Virus record (IMG/VR): IMGVR_UViG_3300012356_000006
Span: 1 to 23,020 of that record
Length of the DNA stretch: 23,020 nucleotides
Source: a virus
Strand: one strand, 5' to 3'
Each line of letters starts with the position of its first letter. Position 1 is the first letter of the stretch. Of this stretch, positions 2,363 through 9,284 are shown in pieces. The translations under genes were made by a program, and so were the position numbers. Under the pieces are notes generated by a model. It ran no database searches and was not told the origin of the DNA. It saw only the letters and a program-made list of their open reading frames with translations.

Positions 2363-2532
2363 CGTCTGCTCTCCTGTTGTAGCAAAACAGCAATCCTACC
2401 CATATGCCAGGCGCATAGCGGATACTGCTTATTGCGCCACCGATAGACATACTCTACAGGCTTTTTATAGCAAAACGCACGCTTGCCAATGCCGAGAATA
2501 CGATACACACGCTGAGAGGTGCAATGTTGCAT
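2359..2532 (-). CDS. Small basic hypothetical protein, 57 aa
   Basis: ATG 2532 lies 6 nt after AGGAG; an upstream in-frame GTG at 2571 has no such site. The product is basic, with three cysteines and three histidines and a segment KKPVEYVYRWRNKQYPLC that could form a small zinc- or nucleic-acid-binding fold. It overlaps the next gene by ATGA and belongs to the run of tiny genes between portal and capsid. Function unknown. Confidence 0.5.
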   Translation of the reverse strand: MQHCTSQRVYRILGIGKRAFCYKKPVEYVYRWRNKQYPLCAWHMGRIAVLLQQESRR

Positions 2533-2545
2533 GATACGCTCCTGT

Positions 2546-2800
2546 CTATGCTGTTTCCACCATTGTACCACGCAATTCTTGCCAGGTCAGCAAGTGCTGT
2601 ATATCCGACCGTCTATCCCATAGCACAATCCCTTGCTCAGAGCGATACGCCAACAGCCGACGTGTCACGCTAGAGCGGATCGGCTGCAGCTCACCTTTGT
2701 CGATGGTTGGAGCAGGTTGCACGTAGAGAGCAGGACATGCATGCACCTGGGTGATCGTGCTCAAGAATGCATGGCAGGCTGGACACTGGCGACTATTCAC
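2546..2800 (-). CDS. Hypothetical protein, 84 aa, CPAC motif
   Basis: GTG 2800 is preferred because GGGAGG ends 6 nt upstream; ATG 2806 abuts that Shine-Dalgarno directly and would add two residues. A CPAC knuckle near the N-terminus and a later HACPAL could make an incomplete zinc site. The C-terminal half has strands (LLAYRSEQGIVLWDRR) and an HLLTWQELRGTMVE helix resembling small phage accessory folds. It overlaps the preceding 30-aa frame by a few bases. Function unknown. Confidence 0.5.
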   Translation of the reverse strand: MNSRQCPACHAFLSTITQVHACPALYVQPAPTIDKGELQPIRSSVTRRLLAYRSEQGIVLWDRRSDIQHLLTWQELRGTMVETA

Positions 2801-2885
2801 TCGCATCCTCCCATATCCGACGCCACAACTCTATAAATTCACTTTCCGTCATGACAATAATGCTAAGCTGGTACTCGTCTTCCAT
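2793..2885 (-). CDS. Possible 30-aa micro-protein
   Basis: ATG 2885 follows a strong AAGGAGG by 4 nt, so ribosomes probably load here. The short acidic peptide (MEDEYQLSIIVMTESEF, then ELWRRIWEDASE) ends inside the next gene's ribosome site, so it may be a leader peptide that couples translation. It shares SIIVMTE with the N-terminus of the neighbouring 71-aa protein, through a repeated DNA motif. Confidence 0.4.
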   Translation of the reverse strand: MEDEYQLSIIVMTESEFIELWRRIWEDASE

Positions 2886-3078
2886 CAATCCTCCTTTTTG
2901 CCTCGTTGCGAAACCATGTGCATAGTAGAGTTATCATCGTGGTGCATACCTGCTCTTCGTTGCAAAAGTCGCATTCGATCACATGCGATACACATCGACC
3001 AAATTGCATTTCGCACATCTTTTCTAGTCTCTCTCTGGTAATTTCTTGCTCTGTCATGACAATAATAGATACGTCCAT
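2863..3078 (-). CDS. Hypothetical protein, 71 aa
   Basis: ATG 3078 overlaps the upstream stop (TGATG), pointing to coupling; there is no close Shine-Dalgarno. A second in-frame ATG follows at VMTEQE. The protein begins with the SIIVMTE stretch, continues with a charged helix (EQEITRERLEKMCEM) and has a CDFCNEEQVC cluster that could bind a metal. The tail is basic. It is not assigned to a family. Confidence 0.5.
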   Translation of the reverse strand: MDVSIIVMTEQEITRERLEKMCEMQFGRCVSHVIECDFCNEEQVCTTMITLLCTWFRNEAKRRIDGRRVPA

Positions 3079-3826: not shown

Positions 3827-6088
3827 CTATGATTGCTCCTTTGGCTTCTCCGTTGGGATTGTTTCGCATTCACAATTCGGGTGCGCAGGCTCTAGGATCG
3901 CGCCATTCGGGAAAGCTTCGCCTACTTTGCGCACCTCTCCATCATTGGCAAAGCACAGGTCGCAGGCATTCGATTGACTGAGCCATTTGAGGTATTCGAC
4001 GCCCTGATCGCGGTACTCCTGTAAGCGTTTGTCGAGGTTATCAGGCGACCAATCGACTTGTTGAGCGGATGTATCTGCGCTCTCCTTTGGTTGTGCTGTA
4101 CCCATCCTGGAGTATGTCCGATCATCTCCAATGGCAAGACAAAGCTGATCGAATACAAGCGGTACATTTGGCACGCTCTCTACTGGAAGAGGCGCATCAG
4201 CATCGATATAGGCTAATGTGATGTGAGGCGTAAAGTCAAAATCGTTCGCAACATTCACACCGGTATCACTAAGGCGTTGTACCAATGCAGCACGCCACGC
4301 GACAAGCCCTGGCACGTTTACGAGAGCGATAACAGGAGAGAGATTATCTGAACTATCCGAAGGTGTAAACCGTCCTAGCCCGCCTGTAGCTCCTTCAAGC
4401 GGCATAGACTTTGCAGCAAACGATGCAAGCTCTTGTTTGAGTTGGTCTATGTTGAGCGTGACCTCGTTCTTATCGCCCAGGAAAGCCAGGGTCACATGCA
4501 TATCTTGAGGAGGCTCACCATTGGGTAAAGCAAGCTGTGAAGCCGTATCCGGATCGAGCATAAACGCGATCATCATGCCGGTATGCTGTTCGACAATCTG
4601 CAATCTTTCCTTTGCTGGCTTCTGCTGTGGAGGTTGTTGTTGTGCTTGCGGTGGCTGTCCAGGAGCCTGTAGCGGAGCAGGTACGGGTTGAGGCGGCTCT
4701 TTGGCCTGTTCGGCTTTCGTTTGCGCTAAGTCAGCGTTGGCTTTTTGTTGTTGGAGCGTCACTGATGCTGTTTGCCTCTGTTCGTCTGCTAGTTCACCCA
4801 TTCTTTCGAGAGGAATAACTTCACGGCCAGAGACGATGATAGGTATTGAGCCGATCTCTTTGGGGTAAGGAGTCTTACCAGAGTCTTGCCGCTCTTCATC
4901 AGGCGTTGACAGCCCGCTAAAGATGCGTTTTTGCTGTACCTCGACTATTTGGGTATCACTCCTATAGTCAGCGTACTTCGTATTGACAATCCAGTCCGTG
5001 ATACCCAGCACGCCGACTACTATCCTTTGGTTGAATTCTTCAAGAATAAGCTGCTTGATGGGGTCAACGGTATTGAGACGAAGGGATTTATCCTGGTCTT
5101 CACCAGATCCGCCTCCGATGTTGCCACTCTCGATAATGCCAATCGCCGCAGGTGGGACACCATAGCCTGCTAAGATTTCCTCACGAGAGAACACCCGCCC
5201 ACCGTGGAAGTCTATATCAATTGGCCCTTTACCATACTCGTGAAGCTGCGCTCCTCCCCACATGACCGGCGGCACATGAGCATTCTGTTCGCCTGTGTAG
5301 TTCTCTTTGTAGAATTTGACGAACGTTCTAGCGTCGTCAACATCGCTCTCAGGCCCTAATTGTATCCATGCGCTGGGCCTAGTACCCTTCCTGAAAAACA
5401 TTTGAGACCAATCCACCATCGACTTATCAGCATAGGTTGGATTGACCAACTTCTCTATAGGCGAGAAGCTAATCATCTTGGCACGTTTGGAGGGAAGCCA
5501 CCATCTGATTATCTGCTCCGGCTTGAACTGTACCTTTTTATTGCTCTGAGTGAGCATCTGGGTATATCCAAGGATAGTGCCGTGTTCATCAAGCTGGTAG
5601 GTTATCGTTGGGCAGTCCAGGGAATGAAGTTGAGGAAACAAGCCACCAGGGACAATCTCTGCATAGCTTTCTCCATAGATTTCGAGATCGTCGGATGTCG
5701 CACGAAGGAAGCGCAATAATTTGACAGCAAGACAGAACTCTTTCAGGCGATCATGTGTGTCTTGCTGCCCCTTGCCGTGCTTTACCTCTTCGAGATGCCA
5801 TCCGCCAGACGTGAACCGCTTGCTAATCACATCTACGCAGGCACTAACCCAGGTATTGCCCTCGTACACACGATAGAGCGTATCTTTCCGCTCGTACTCG
5901 CTCAAGGGGCGCTGATCTCTCGCTTGCCCCATACCTTCGTTTTCATCCCATGCCAAGCTGAGCGATTGCGGCCCCTTGCTGCTAGACTTCGTAGCAGCTT
6001 GTGTAACTTTCTTTGTGGGCTTGGGCGCAGCTTCTACCAGGGGCTGGACTAATTGCAACGTACCCCGCGGGCGTCTTTTATTCGTCAT
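3827..6088 (-). CDS. Phage portal protein fused to a 2H phosphoesterase domain and a MuF-like tail
   Basis: 753 aa, well above the 400-500 aa of a simple portal. Residues 60-435 are a portal (ERKDTLYRVYEGNTWVSACV near the start; FSREEILAGYGVPPAAIG near 299-316, a typical portal segment), which would form the dodecameric DNA gate on the head. Residues 440-495 are a Gln/Pro-rich linker. Residues 503-665 are a 2H phosphoesterase/2'-5' RNA ligase-like domain with both HxT motifs, HVTLAF at 531 and HITLAY at 622. Residues 690-745 resemble the MuF/minor-head C-terminus: C709-x2-C712 and HPNCEC with H736, C739, C741. In the family, 2H domains cleave 2'-5' or cyclic phosphodiester bonds (for example the anti-CBASS enzyme Acb1). 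The substrate here is unknown. Two membrane mini-genes and TerL precede it. Confidence 0.85.
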   Translation of the reverse strand: MTNKRRPRGTLQLVQPLVEAAPKPTKKVTQAATKSSSKGPQSLSLAWDENEGMGQARDQRPLSEYERKDTLYRVYEGNTWVSACVDVISKRFTSGGWHLEEVKHGKGQQDTHDRLKEFCLAVKLLRFLRATSDDLEIYGESYAEIVPGGLFPQLHSLDCPTITYQLDEHGTILGYTQMLTQSNKKVQFKPEQIIRWWLPSKRAKMISFSPIEKLVNPTYADKSMVDWSQMFFRKGTRPSAWIQLGPESDVDDARTFVKFYKENYTGEQNAHVPPVMWGGAQLHEYGKGPIDIDFHGGRVFSREEILAGYGVPPAAIGIIESGNIGGGSGEDQDKSLRLNTVDPIKQLILEEFNQRIVVGVLGITDWIVNTKYADYRSDTQIVEVQQKRIFSGLSTPDEERQDSGKTPYPKEIGSIPIIVSGREVIPLERMGELADEQRQTASVTLQQQKANADLAQTKAEQAKEPPQPVPAPLQAPGQPPQAQQQPPQQKPAKERLQIVEQHTGMMIAFMLDPDTASQLALPNGEPPQDMHVTLAFLGDKNEVTLNIDQLKQELASFAAKSMPLEGATGGLGRFTPSDSSDNLSPVIALVNVPGLVAWRAALVQRLSDTGVNVANDFDFTPHITLAYIDADAPLPVESVPNVPLVFDQLCLAIGDDRTYSRMGTAQPKESADTSAQQVDWSPDNLDKRLQEYRDQGVEYLKWLSQSNACDLCFANDGEVRKVGEAFPNGAILEPAHPNCECETIPTEKPKEQS

Positions 6089-6101
6089 CTTCTATCTATC
6101 C

Positions 6102-6224
6102 TCAATTCATCGCATTCAGCATCATGACCATCATGTATGCCGTACCCAGCACTACCAGCACCACAAACACATATGCCAGCACCACGCGCCATGTTGGCTC
6201 ATCTAGTTCTTCATCTTCGTCCAT
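6102..6224 (-). CDS. One-helix membrane mini-protein, 40 aa
   Basis: Two adjacent ATGs (6227, 6224); 6224 sits 6 nt after AGGAG and is preferred. An acidic N-terminus (DEDEELDEPTW) is followed by one transmembrane helix (VVLAYVFVVLVVLGTAYMM) with Met-rich ends. The Shine-Dalgarno overlaps the stop of the upstream membrane gene. Its place between TerL and portal and its size would allow a holin- or spanin-like role, but no lysin is seen next to it. Confidence 0.55.
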   Translation of the reverse strand: MDEDEELDEPTWRVVLAYVFVVLVVLGTAYMMVMMLNAMN

Positions 6225-6233
6225 CATTTGCTC

Positions 6234-6371
6234 CTACTGAAATATATGAAAGACAGCAGCACATATCATAAATCCAATAAGCAGAGCAGTTAAGACAAGA
6301 ACTATCTTAACCCGTAACCAGAACCTCCGCTCACGTGCCCCATGATAAATAACATGGTATTCTTTTCTCAT
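6234..6371 (-). CDS. One-helix membrane mini-protein, 45 aa
   Basis: ATG 6371 is 6 nt after AGGAG, just downstream of the TerL stop. The N-terminal 20 residues are basic (HGARERRFWLRV), then one helix (KIVLVLTALLIGFMICAAVF) spans the membrane; by the positive-inside rule the N-terminus is cytoplasmic. Its stop codon forms part of the next Shine-Dalgarno, so the two membrane genes are coupled. Function unknown. Confidence 0.55.
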   Translation of the reverse strand: MRKEYHVIYHGARERRFWLRVKIVLVLTALLIGFMICAAVFHIFQ

Positions 6372-6382
6372 CACTTGCTCCT

Positions 6383-8770
6383 CTACTGAAAAATCGCGTA
6401 CCCGCTCGGTACATCCTCTTGCGGTATAGGTTGCTCTCGCAGGTCAGTATCTACGAGAATACCGCCAATCGCCTGTACTCCTGTCATCAATTCGGTAAAA
6501 GCCCACACATTCGCATCGCAATTATGAACAAGGACGCACTGAGCATAATACTCATGGGCGTCCTCTACTTGAAGATTATAAACAGATGCTTTACCCGCGT
6601 CGTATAACCCAAGCACACTTACGAGAGCAGGTACGTTGTGGTTTTGATTTTTTTGCATTAAAGGTTGATCCGCACACAATGCACTGCCTATCTTCGTAGT
6701 ACCTTCGTGTTTGCTCGTTCCATTTGGATATGCAAGAGCGAGAACAGAATCGCTCATCACCTTTTCTTGATCGAGTAAGGTACGCTTTTCCGCACTGAAT
6801 ACATACCTGTTGTATGGGATCTCGATCAGTCCAGCTATCTTTTCCATGCTGAACATGCCACTCATGACCCTCCTCTGAAGAGTGCCATTCCTTTGCAAGA
6901 GGACGTATTTGTTCAGCATGTTTCTGACGTTGCTCGTGAAACTCGGCTTTGTGGCGTTGGGCATGTTCCTTCTTGGTAAGACACTCCAAGTTGTCGATGG
7001 TATTATTAAGCGGGTTACCGTCGATGTGATGGATTTCACAGCCTGATGGAATGGGGCCATGATGCGCCTTCCATATCTCTCTATGGAGGGCGTCAACACC
7101 GACAGCACGGTTGCCTTTTTCATCGTAGGGCCAATAATAGACGCGCGAGTGACGTCTATGCGAGGTTGGGTATCGCGCAAAGGTGATACCATTGTAGATA
7201 ATTGTTTCTCGTTCCATGTCTCCATTATATCACCCCATACAAGAGAGTTCAACGGCACATAGCCCTTATTCTGAACAAAAACGGGATGATTGCCCGTTCC
7301 TGTCAATGTTCGACCATTCGACATAGACACAGAAATGACCTCTGTATTTGAATTTGTCATACCCGCCGCTATCACGCGTTTCCATCCTTGACGTGTCAGC
7401 ACTTTCATGCCAACACAAATAGTTTCTATTGGTTTTTCTCCCTGGTCAGTCATGACCAAAGTTCCTGCCACAAAGCATCTATCCGGTGATTTCTCACCAG
7501 GTACCCAATTGCATTGTTGATACTCGGTATCTGGGAATACTCCGCAGTGATGTATCAAAGCGCGCTGGTACAGGCTAGATATCGGCTCCGCTCTTAACTG
7601 CTTCCCTCGTGTAGCCCTGACTGCCTTGTACGGAACATGTCCCATCCCTTTCTGCTTGGCAATGTTGTAGATGATTGCACCAACCATCTCCCCACCGTTG
7701 TTAACCTCACCAATGATCGCGTCTGCCTCAAAGAGTGCGTATGCTGTCAATGCCGCCGTTGCCCATTCGTCAGGAGTGCCTACAAGGCTATAATCTCCCA
7801 ACATGTACCCATGCCCATCGACACCCAGGCCGGCTACCACTATGCCAGCCTCAGCAGGATTATCACTGGTAGCATCGCTGCTAGCAGGTGGGTCTACGGC
7901 TACTACAATGCGTTTAAGCTCAGGATGCTTGGTAACTCGATTGTCATCTATCCATTGACGTTTCCAGAGAGCACCATCGATATCATCGATGATGTGACCC
8001 TCTATCTCCTGATCACCGAGTCGAGTACCTGCATAGCGTCGGTTTATTTCAGCGATGAAACGCGGTGAGAGGTTCTCTTTGTTCTCAAGAGTTGACCGTC
8101 TGGTAACTACCGTTGTCGGATCGGCTACCAGGGCTTTCATCGCTTTGGTGTTGCGTGGCGTTGTGGTGACGATACACTGCGGATTGACACCAGGAGCAGG
8201 CTCTATACGAAGTCCAAAGGAAAGCTGATCCCACGTATCATCGTACTGCCATGCTGCCCGCTCATCTGCCCATGCGAACGAATGCTGAGGGCCTCTGAGC
8301 TGATCCGGTTCATCTGCACTATAGGTAGTGGCATATGAGCCATTAGGCCATACGAGCATGCGTAAGGACGGCTTGTATTCGGGTCTGAACCAGGGAGGCG
8401 ATATCGAGAGAATGCCGCTCCGACCTTTGACCATCACATCGCGCACATCTGCGACCGTCCGCCCTACCAACGCGATATGACAACCAGGATAGGCTTGTGC
8501 TTTCTCTATGACCCATTCCGCACCGGTGCGCGTCTTGCCCCAACCTCTACCTGAGAGAATGCACCATGTAGACCATTGCCCTTCTGGTGGGAGCTGGCTA
8601 TCACGTGCCCATGCTTTCCACTCGTATTTAAGCCTTAGTACCCATTCTTTGGGGGCTTTTTTAATGTACTCGTATTTTCGTTTCTTGCTCCATGTGGCAA
8701 AGAGACGAAAAAACCTGAGTTCTTGCTCAGGTGTGTAATTAGCCTTGGTTAGCTTGCTCTTTGTTTTCAT
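6383..8770 (-). CDS. terL: Terminase large subunit interrupted by an intein
   Basis: DNA-packaging motor. 795 aa precursor; removing the intein leaves 476 aa, normal for TerL. The ATPase has Walker A LSGRGWGKT (residues 72-80) and Walker B with catalytic Glu FAWADE (165-170). The RNase-H-like nuclease has VVAVDPPA (289-296, Asp293), IIGEVNNGGE (352-361) and SPDR at 428-431 rejoining CDANVWAF after splicing, the usual SPDRxDAxVWA motif. The intein occupies residues 432-750. The nuclease motif is split, so splicing is needed for headful cutting. The gene overlaps terS by 32 nt with no clear Shine-Dalgarno, so it is probably coupled to terS. Confidence 0.93.
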   Translation of the reverse strand: MKTKSKLTKANYTPEQELRFFRLFATWSKKRKYEYIKKAPKEWVLRLKYEWKAWARDSQLPPEGQWSTWCILSGRGWGKTRTGAEWVIEKAQAYPGCHIALVGRTVADVRDVMVKGRSGILSISPPWFRPEYKPSLRMLVWPNGSYATTYSADEPDQLRGPQHSFAWADERAAWQYDDTWDQLSFGLRIEPAPGVNPQCIVTTTPRNTKAMKALVADPTTVVTRRSTLENKENLSPRFIAEINRRYAGTRLGDQEIEGHIIDDIDGALWKRQWIDDNRVTKHPELKRIVVAVDPPASSDATSDNPAEAGIVVAGLGVDGHGYMLGDYSLVGTPDEWATAALTAYALFEADAIIGEVNNGGEMVGAIIYNIAKQKGMGHVPYKAVRATRGKQLRAEPISSLYQRALIHHCGVFPDTEYQQCNWVPGEKSPDRCFVAGTLVMTDQGEKPIETICVGMKVLTRQGWKRVIAAGMTNSNTEVISVSMSNGRTLTGTGNHPVFVQNKGYVPLNSLVWGDIMETWNEKQLSTMVSPLRDTQPRIDVTRASIIGPTMKKATVLSVLTPSIERYGRRIMAPFHQAVKSITSTVTRLIIPSTTWSVLPRRNMPNATKPSFTSNVRNMLNKYVLLQRNGTLQRRVMSGMFSMEKIAGLIEIPYNRYVFSAEKRTLLDQEKVMSDSVLALAYPNGTSKHEGTTKIGSALCADQPLMQKNQNHNVPALVSVLGLYDAGKASVYNLQVEDAHEYYAQCVLVHNCDANVWAFTELMTGVQAIGGILVDTDLREQPIPQEDVPSGYAIFQ
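6591..7217 (-). CDS. HNH homing endonuclease nested out of frame inside the TerL intein
   Basis: 208 aa on the same strand as terL but in a different frame, entirely inside the intein. Residues 42-90 hold the HNH fold: HREIWKAHHGPIPSGCEIHHIDG, with His63-His64 and Asp66, then NPLNNTIDNLECL and H85/H89. The C-terminal third has two zinc-ribbon pairs: C139-x2-C142 with C158-x3-C162, and C179-x2-C182 with C197-x3-C201. These ribbons are common DNA-recognition add-ons in HNH homing enzymes. ATG 7217 lies 7 nt downstream of TATAAT with only GGAG 2 nt away, suggesting a leaderless message. The stop falls just before block F, so the gene replaces the usual endonuclease insert exactly. By family role it would cut intein-less terL alleles. 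Confidence 0.88.
   Translation of the reverse strand: MERETIIYNGITFARYPTSHRRHSRVYYWPYDEKGNRAVGVDALHREIWKAHHGPIPSGCEIHHIDGNPLNNTIDNLECLTKKEHAQRHKAEFHEQRQKHAEQIRPLAKEWHSSEEGHEWHVQHGKDSWTDRDPIQQVCIQCGKAYLTRSRKGDERFCSRSCISKWNEQTRRYYEDRQCIVCGSTFNAKKSKPQRTCSRKCAWVIRRG
7224..7252 (-). promoter_or_regulatory. Promoter-like sequence inside the intein, upstream of the nested HNH gene
   Basis: TTGAAC (7252-7247), a 17-nt spacer and a perfect TATAAT (7229-7224). The predicted start, 7 nt downstream, is the A of the HNH start codon, so the transcript would be leaderless. The same bases encode in-frame intein residues near 507-516. Confidence 0.55.
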
Positions 8771-9284
8771 CAGTCAATGCCGATGCGAGATCAGCTAGTA
8801 ATGATTGTTTTGCTTGTTCTGCCAGGTCAGCAAGCTCAGCATGAATGTTAACTTGTGGCTTCTCTTTGTATTCAGGAAGATTTGCCTTTGCGTAAGCCAT
8901 GGCCAAGCTATCACTCCATTTGGGTACCATCACCTGCTTACCACGTTGCATCAGAGGCTTACCCTTGTGATCGTACTTCTGCTTCCCCTCGTCATCCATC
9001 ACTGGCTCATACTCATAGACAAGCTGCCCCATGCTGACCATTGGCTCTTCCCATCCCAGTATGCCCCGTGCGTAAATGGAACTACGTGCAACGTCCCTGG
9101 TGCGCTCTATGGCGGTATCCCACGCTTTAGAGAATGCCTCATCACTCCCACGCCAGCGATACGCGGTATCACGCGAAATCTCGGCTTTATCGCAGGCGAG
9201 GGACACGTTGGGGTCAACTTTCAACGATACCAGAAAGCGATCCTTGGCTTCCCTCTGCTCTTTTGCCCTATCTTTCGCGTTCAC
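8739..9284 (-). CDS. terS: Terminase small subunit
   Basis: 181 aa, directly before terL, which it overlaps by 32 nt. The N-terminal helix-turn-helix (VSLACDKAEISRDTAYRWR, residues 28-46) is typical of TerS proteins that bind the packaging site. The pattern DEAFSKAWDTAIERTRDVARSSIYARGILGWEEP is the family's central oligomerisation helix region. The C-terminus is helical and acidic and would contact TerL. GTG 9284 is the likely start, with GGGGAAAG 5-6 nt upstream. TerS recognises phage DNA and hands it to the TerL motor. Confidence 0.85.
   Translation of the reverse strand: MNAKDRAKEQREAKDRFLVSLKVDPNVSLACDKAEISRDTAYRWRGSDEAFSKAWDTAIERTRDVARSSIYARGILGWEEPMVSMGQLVYEYEPVMDDEGKQKYDHKGKPLMQRGKQVMVPKWSDSLAMAYAKANLPEYKEKPQVNIHAELADLAEQAKQSLLADLASALTDENKEQANQG

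Follow-up and report, generated by a model that had tools for sequence, protein, structure and literature searches.

The terL gene of a virus record of 23,020 bases (hereafter the window, meaning the whole stretch that was analysed) very probably carries a dual-coded mobile intein, in which a self-splicing Hint domain is encoded in the terL frame and an HNH endonuclease, initiated independently in another frame, drives homing. The design recurs in more than 150 distinct loci of bacterial and archaeal viruses. Out-of-frame HNH insertions in phage genes were known already; what is added here is such an HNH within a Hint-bearing intein. In the proposed mechanism, a ribosome translating terL would read straight through the intein, and its two Hint halves would assemble into one fold, leave the linker between them unstructured and excise themselves, so that TerL is restored. 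A second initiation on the same mRNA, at an ATG just past the N-terminal Hint half and preceded by a sequence resembling a Shine-Dalgarno (SD) site, would yield a free HNH protein with two zinc ribbons. This enzyme would most likely cut or nick intein-free terL at a putative site near the conserved D-(H/R)-x-D-A motif, and repair would then copy the intein and the HNH together.

The terL-intein ORF (6383..8770; this and all other features of the window are on the minus strand) encodes 795 aa, namely the TerL N-extein, the intein and the C-extein. Pfam matches in this frame include Terminase_6N, Terminase_6C, Hint_2 and Intein_splicing; among the NCBIfam models, intein_Cterm scored above the cut-off and intein_Nterm just below it. 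Boundary analysis and comparison with intein-free relatives placed the N-extein at 7478..8770, ending in GEKSPDR, and the C-extein at 6383..6520, starting with CDANVWAFTEL. Between them lies an intein of 319 aa (6521..7477) with the hallmarks of class 1: an N-terminal Cys, a block B TGNH (TxxH), and an HN|C junction with Cys at the +1 position. The residues C1, T61, H64 and N319 are invariant or nearly so among 85 relatives. The insertion site is near the nuclease motif of TerL, outside the ATPase domain, and the insertion is in frame and clean, as two intein-free homologues (L154 and L155) showed.

The N-terminal Hint half (7214..7477) was recognized by a profile match and contains blocks A and B with C1 and TGNH; the C-terminal half (6521..6628) contains blocks F and G, ends in VHN, and was recognized by profile matches including NCBIfam. 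In the AlphaFold model of the intein, the first 90 and the last 40 residues have a pLDDT of about 98, whereas the middle 190 residues have about 50. The Foldseek search of the model returned solved inteins, with the gp41-1 intein first, which indicates a Hint fold. Thus the proposal of a real intein in TerL, made in a preliminary description of this DNA, is supported by the domain matches, the junction residues and the empty alleles. With these features, the intein probably splices itself out of TerL.

The HNH ORF (6591..7217, 208 aa) is fully contained in the intein 6521-7477 in a frame different from that of terL, and its ATG begins at the third base of a terL codon. At its 5' end it shares a few bases with the N-terminal Hint block, and at its 3' end it extends 37 nt into the C-terminal block; it therefore occupies almost precisely the interval in which an intein endonuclease is classically inserted. 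The HNH_3 core (residues 43-87, 6957..7091) matched Pfam with 73 bits against a cut-off of 24.8 (E=1.5e-20), the ORF also matched phrog_15471 (E=2.5e-37), and its AlphaFold prediction has a pLDDT of 96. Conserved residues among 48 relatives (alignment A6) include H63, H64, N76 and H85 as well as both four-cysteine zinc ribbons, the first with C139, C142, C158 and C162 (6732..6803) and the second with C179, C182, C197 and C201 (6615..6683), all of which are invariant. The preliminary description of a complete out-of-frame HNH with two zinc ribbons is therefore accurate. This protein is probably a DNA-nicking or DNA-cutting enzyme that spreads the intein.

The best solved-structure match of the predicted HNH is I-HmuI (1u3e), although this match is weak (E 0.12, Foldseek). 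I-HmuI represents the HNH enzymes of phage group I introns; the HNH of the window differs in having two zinc ribbons and in being carried by an intein. A group I intron around the HNH ORF was ruled out, since no Rfam match was found at E up to 1 in positions 6100-9000 of the window and the terL frame is open throughout. The arrangement is also different from a canonical bifunctional intein, in which the endonuclease belongs to the Hint frame and polypeptide, and from a split intein, in which the host gene is broken into two ORFs; here the frames differ, and the host gene is a single ORF of 795 aa. Across the dual-coded stretch (6629..7213), the terL frame forms a linker that is predicted to be unfolded (pLDDT about 50), contains no motifs and evolves at a near-neutral rate, which agrees with the earlier remark that this frame stays open over the HNH yet shows no motifs.

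Relatives were gathered by family-alignment scans (best 80 matches per scan) and by local profiles for the HNH and both Hint halves. Among the matches listed, at least 230 distinct loci have a good HNH; the counts below describe this sample and are not prevalences. In at least 157 of the 230, the HNH is nested out of frame in an open Hint-bearing frame at the same offset (the host frame is the HNH frame +1), and a single locus (L196) has the other offset. Of the 230 loci listed, about 32 are split or broken between the Hint halves, Hint is absent from about 33, and a few others are one-sided or cut by contig ends. The host proteins are terminases by Pfam: 80 N-exteins gave overlapping matches to Terminase_3 (46), Terminase_6N (44) and GpA_ATPase (4). 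Three phages whose TerL is annotated as a single long protein have the same layout (Acinetobacter phage Highwayman, Tetrasphaera phage TJE1 and Rhodobacteraceae phage LS06-2018-MD07), as does a record of Frankia sp. AgB32. An archaeal dual-coded intein is present in the complete record of the Halobacterium plasmid pGSL19_54.9 (L165:1469-3781), where it is annotated as a 'Hint domain-containing protein'. This plasmid also carries phage structural genes, and the element is probably a provirus.

These records bear on the possibility that frameshift errors from sequencing or assembly, one on each side of the HNH, mask an ordinary in-frame bifunctional intein. Metagenomic contigs may contain indels, and canonical inteins do have their endonuclease in frame; however, the same offset occurs in the 157 or more distinct loci, including isolate and finished records, the HNH possesses its own start and stop, and among the matches listed none of the 230 loci has the two-ribbon HNH family fused in frame to Hint. 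Such an error is thus practically out of the question, and the layout shared with TJE1, Highwayman, Frankia sp. AgB32 and pGSL19_54.9 disposes of the one finding that was expected to overturn the preliminary description. The only three in-frame matches listed (L143, L146 and L147) were rejected, as they are low-score matches to the HNH core alone and do not belong to the two-ribbon family. At the exceptional L196 (L196:738-1205), the HNH is nested with the +2 frame open and 10 stops in the +1 frame, and Hint halves are found on both sides; this locus is apparently an independent origin of dual coding. A distant nested HNH was also observed in Beijerinckia mobilis (L138:3259-4080), in an intein whose position in TerL is apparently another one, within the ATPase region (LRGPQHDAAW|C...N|CDELAAW).

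Whether the open frame might be due to chance was assessed by synonymous shuffling that preserves both the protein and the codons of the HNH. Taken by itself, the window gene has an open intein frame with a probability of 0.0145, and in single GC-rich genes a chance open frame is not rare (P up to 0.58 in L010). In a first survey, all 96 nested genes had no stop in the intein frame within the HNH core, against 207 expected in total; this joint figure is not a p-value, because the nested genes were chosen for openness and the relatives are not independent. Chance as a general explanation is rejected by this set. The strength of the open-frame evidence resides in the set, whose members are related yet deeply diverged, with a median terminal branch of 0.51 changes per site in the HNH tree. 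The un-nested relatives have about 7 stops on average in the intein frame (mostly 3-13); the open exceptions among them are L005 and L108, in which Hint was undetected, and L119, which is cut by a contig end. Even in the nested genes, the other shifted frame has about 19 stops on average, and this accounts for the near-universal +1 offset.

Which of the two frames is selected was examined in 15 nested pairs with an HNH identity of 60% or more, in which single-base changes were classed by their effect in both frames. The substitution rate, without correction for transition bias and with some sequences common to several pairs, was 0.600 for changes silent in both frames, 0.538 for HNH-silent but linker-changing ones, 0.229 for HNH-changing but linker-silent ones, and 0.166 for those changing both. 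As the pairs are diverged and the rates partly saturated, selection on the HNH looks weaker here than it really is. Over 87 pairs, the identity is 55% in the HNH frame and 32% in the linker frame, and the HNH codons differ by 0.36, 0.31 and 0.57 at their first, second and third positions, respectively. The linker changes nearly freely and HNH-altering changes are much slower (0.54 vs 0.17-0.23), so the HNH is the selected product, as the preliminary description had claimed, and the linker is merely kept open. The HNH might instead be a decaying passenger of an intein that spreads passively, since ordinary phage recombination could explain the transfer of inteins between phages. This is very unlikely, given that HNH-changing substitutions are strongly under-represented and that all 48 relatives retain the HNH and zinc-ligand residues unchanged. 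The distances of Hint and HNH correlate with a rho of only 0.15; divergence and exchange probably blur any signal of co-inheritance.

Several features suggest how the HNH would be translated. Its ATG in the window is preceded by the leader TGGGGTGATATAATGGAGAC (7218..7237), in which GGGGTGAT can pair with the anti-Shine-Dalgarno sequence while coding for Gly-Asp of Hint; the predicted duplex has -12.0 kcal/mol, and similar leaders are found in the relatives. At several loci, GGTGAT, which encodes the conserved Gly-Asp of Hint, also forms the SD core. The mean predicted SD pairing is -6.6 kcal/mol at HNH starts vs -3.4 kcal/mol at other ATGs of the same genes (n=89, p ~1e-19). With start choice in the relatives being rule-based, a usable start codon is present in 155 of the 157 nested HNH ORFs (ATG in 142), and the other two have no ATG, GTG or TTG at the expected place. 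About one quarter of the nested loci have weak predicted pairing (above -4 kcal/mol), and some hosts may therefore use another initiation route.

A fusion of the N-terminal Hint half to the HNH by programmed ribosomal frameshifting, with no separate initiation, was also considered. Ribosomal frameshifting is common in phages, and it could bring the terL ribosomes into the HNH frame. However, an in-frame stop lies at a median of 33 nt upstream of the start of HNH homology, and within 30 nt in half of the nested loci; together with the start codons in 155 of 157, this leaves little room for a frameshifted fusion. Moreover, the HNH starts are mostly ATG and SD-enriched, and relatives also stand as free genes beside terL. 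The fusion is thus highly improbable, and we infer that the HNH is translated independently from its own start, the simpler route already favoured in the preliminary description.

The comparison with intein-less terL, suggested at the outset, was made with the close relatives L154 and L155, whose TerL proteins share 97% and 95% identity with that of the window. Both are empty, and read SPDRLDANVWAF where the window reads SPDR|C...HN|CDANVWAF. In L002, the intein is identical at 957 of 957 positions, whereas the upstream terL DNA is only 88.3% identical; in L003, the intein has 3 differences (954/957) and the upstream terL is 92% identical. In terL, the empty L154 (92%) resembles the window more closely than the occupied L002 does. 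An identical intein in diverged terL flanks, together with the empty sites, points to recent homing, and the intein has recently moved horizontally as a unit. It is inferred that the HNH drove this transfer; the identity of intein versus flanks shows the transfer itself and does not identify the nuclease.

The host genes are terminases and free-standing relatives of the HNH adjoin terL, so the HNH might aid TerL packaging and have no role in homing, like some free HNH proteins adjacent to terminases. HNH proteins that assist terminases are known, as cited in PMC11855218. This reading is quite unlikely, as no HNH was found in the fragments examined of the close intein-free phages L154 and L155, and the intein is transferred together with its HNH into TerLs of which empty alleles exist. 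Twelve Hint-less relatives had their surroundings inspected; most are directly downstream of terL and one is upstream of terS, which is consistent with an enzyme acting on terL. For example, the free-standing HNH of L005 (L005:2387-2416 and 2434-3069) follows an apparently intein-free terL. Its leader resembles the tail of the N-terminal Hint half (LRYGDIM; CTGCGATACGGTGATATAATG) and the +1 frame is still open, and this HNH may be an escapee from a dual-coded intein.

Split inteins whose halves flank a free-standing endonuclease gene ('fractured genes') were reportedly described by Dassa and co-workers in 2009. As in the window, the endonuclease gene separates Hint N from Hint C; it is translated by itself, as the HNH of the window would be. 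The host frame of the window, unlike that of split inteins, runs uninterrupted through the endonuclease gene, and the intein is therefore contiguous and could splice in cis. The split arrangement was also found here for the same HNH family beside terL, with terL as two ORFs and the HNH between the Hint N and Hint C halves (L104, L109-L112, L115, L118, L130, L243, L245 and L253-L260); these loci are candidate new split inteins. In these loci, the start of the C-terminal half is often within the 3' end of the HNH.

Among the matches listed, about 32 loci are split or broken, and in 30 of them the C-terminal half is in the +1 frame relative to the HNH, as in the nested form. The nested state predominates in the HNH tree, and strongly supported branches force at least 4 changes of state. 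These suggest passage between nested and split forms, which could run in either direction; the low stop density of the +1 frame could also favour this position of the C-terminal half in the split loci. A broader reading, for which the chance seems a little short of even, is that dual-coded inteins form a large and old class in the TerL proteins of viruses of bacteria and archaea, that their intein frame serves only as a stop-free spacer, and that they are the bridge to split inteins.

The only direct precedent found in the literature searches is the ShiLan domain of mycobacteriophage methylases, an out-of-frame HNH insertion that is also known from Pacc40 (Arsenault, Gosselin, Gogarten 2025, PMC11855218). 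Both systems have an insertion in a phage gene, an open host frame, an out-of-frame zinc-finger HNH in the identical relative frame, and a patchy distribution. However, ShiLan has no Hint or splicing domain, according to its authors and to the profiles used here, whereas the window has Hint N and C. Its host is a methylase and not TerL, its HNH has another domain order and weak similarity, and no ribosome-binding site was reported for it. The literature searches found no paper on an out-of-frame endonuclease in a Hint-bearing intein; a preprint (10.1101/2025.01.02.630785), which PMC11855218 cites for overlapping reading frames in actinobacteriophages, may report related cases.

The TerL inteins of mycobacteriophages have an in-frame homing endonuclease (Kelley et al. 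2016, PMC5050341). Such canonical inteins are likewise mobile, are located in terL, and have an endonuclease-coding stretch between the Hint halves. Their endonuclease forms one domain within the intein polypeptide, whereas that of the window is a separate protein in another frame; moreover, the mycobacteriophage site is in the ATPase domain and that of the window is near the TerL nuclease motif. The architecture was earlier called unusual, which holds for inteins generally and fails within the terL-associated HNH family, where the nested form is the norm. An intein and a homing endonuclease can thus share bases without sharing a polypeptide, so that fusion of the endonuclease into the intein, usually regarded as necessary, is less strictly required. 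These loci also provide a large natural collection of long genes that overlap on the same strand under clean one-sided selection, and offer a concrete way for inteins to pass between the contiguous and the split form. Annotation can miss such endonucleases, and inteins with long motif-free linkers merit a check of all frames.

The portal protein of the window (3827-6088, minus strand) has a fused 2H phosphoesterase domain (2_5_RNA_ligase2/LigT, residues ~525-634), and also bears a cysteine-rich tail resembling head proteins of the Mu gpF type. The anti-CBASS protein Acb1 likewise has the 2H fold, and a defence-related role of the portal 2H domain is therefore conceivable.
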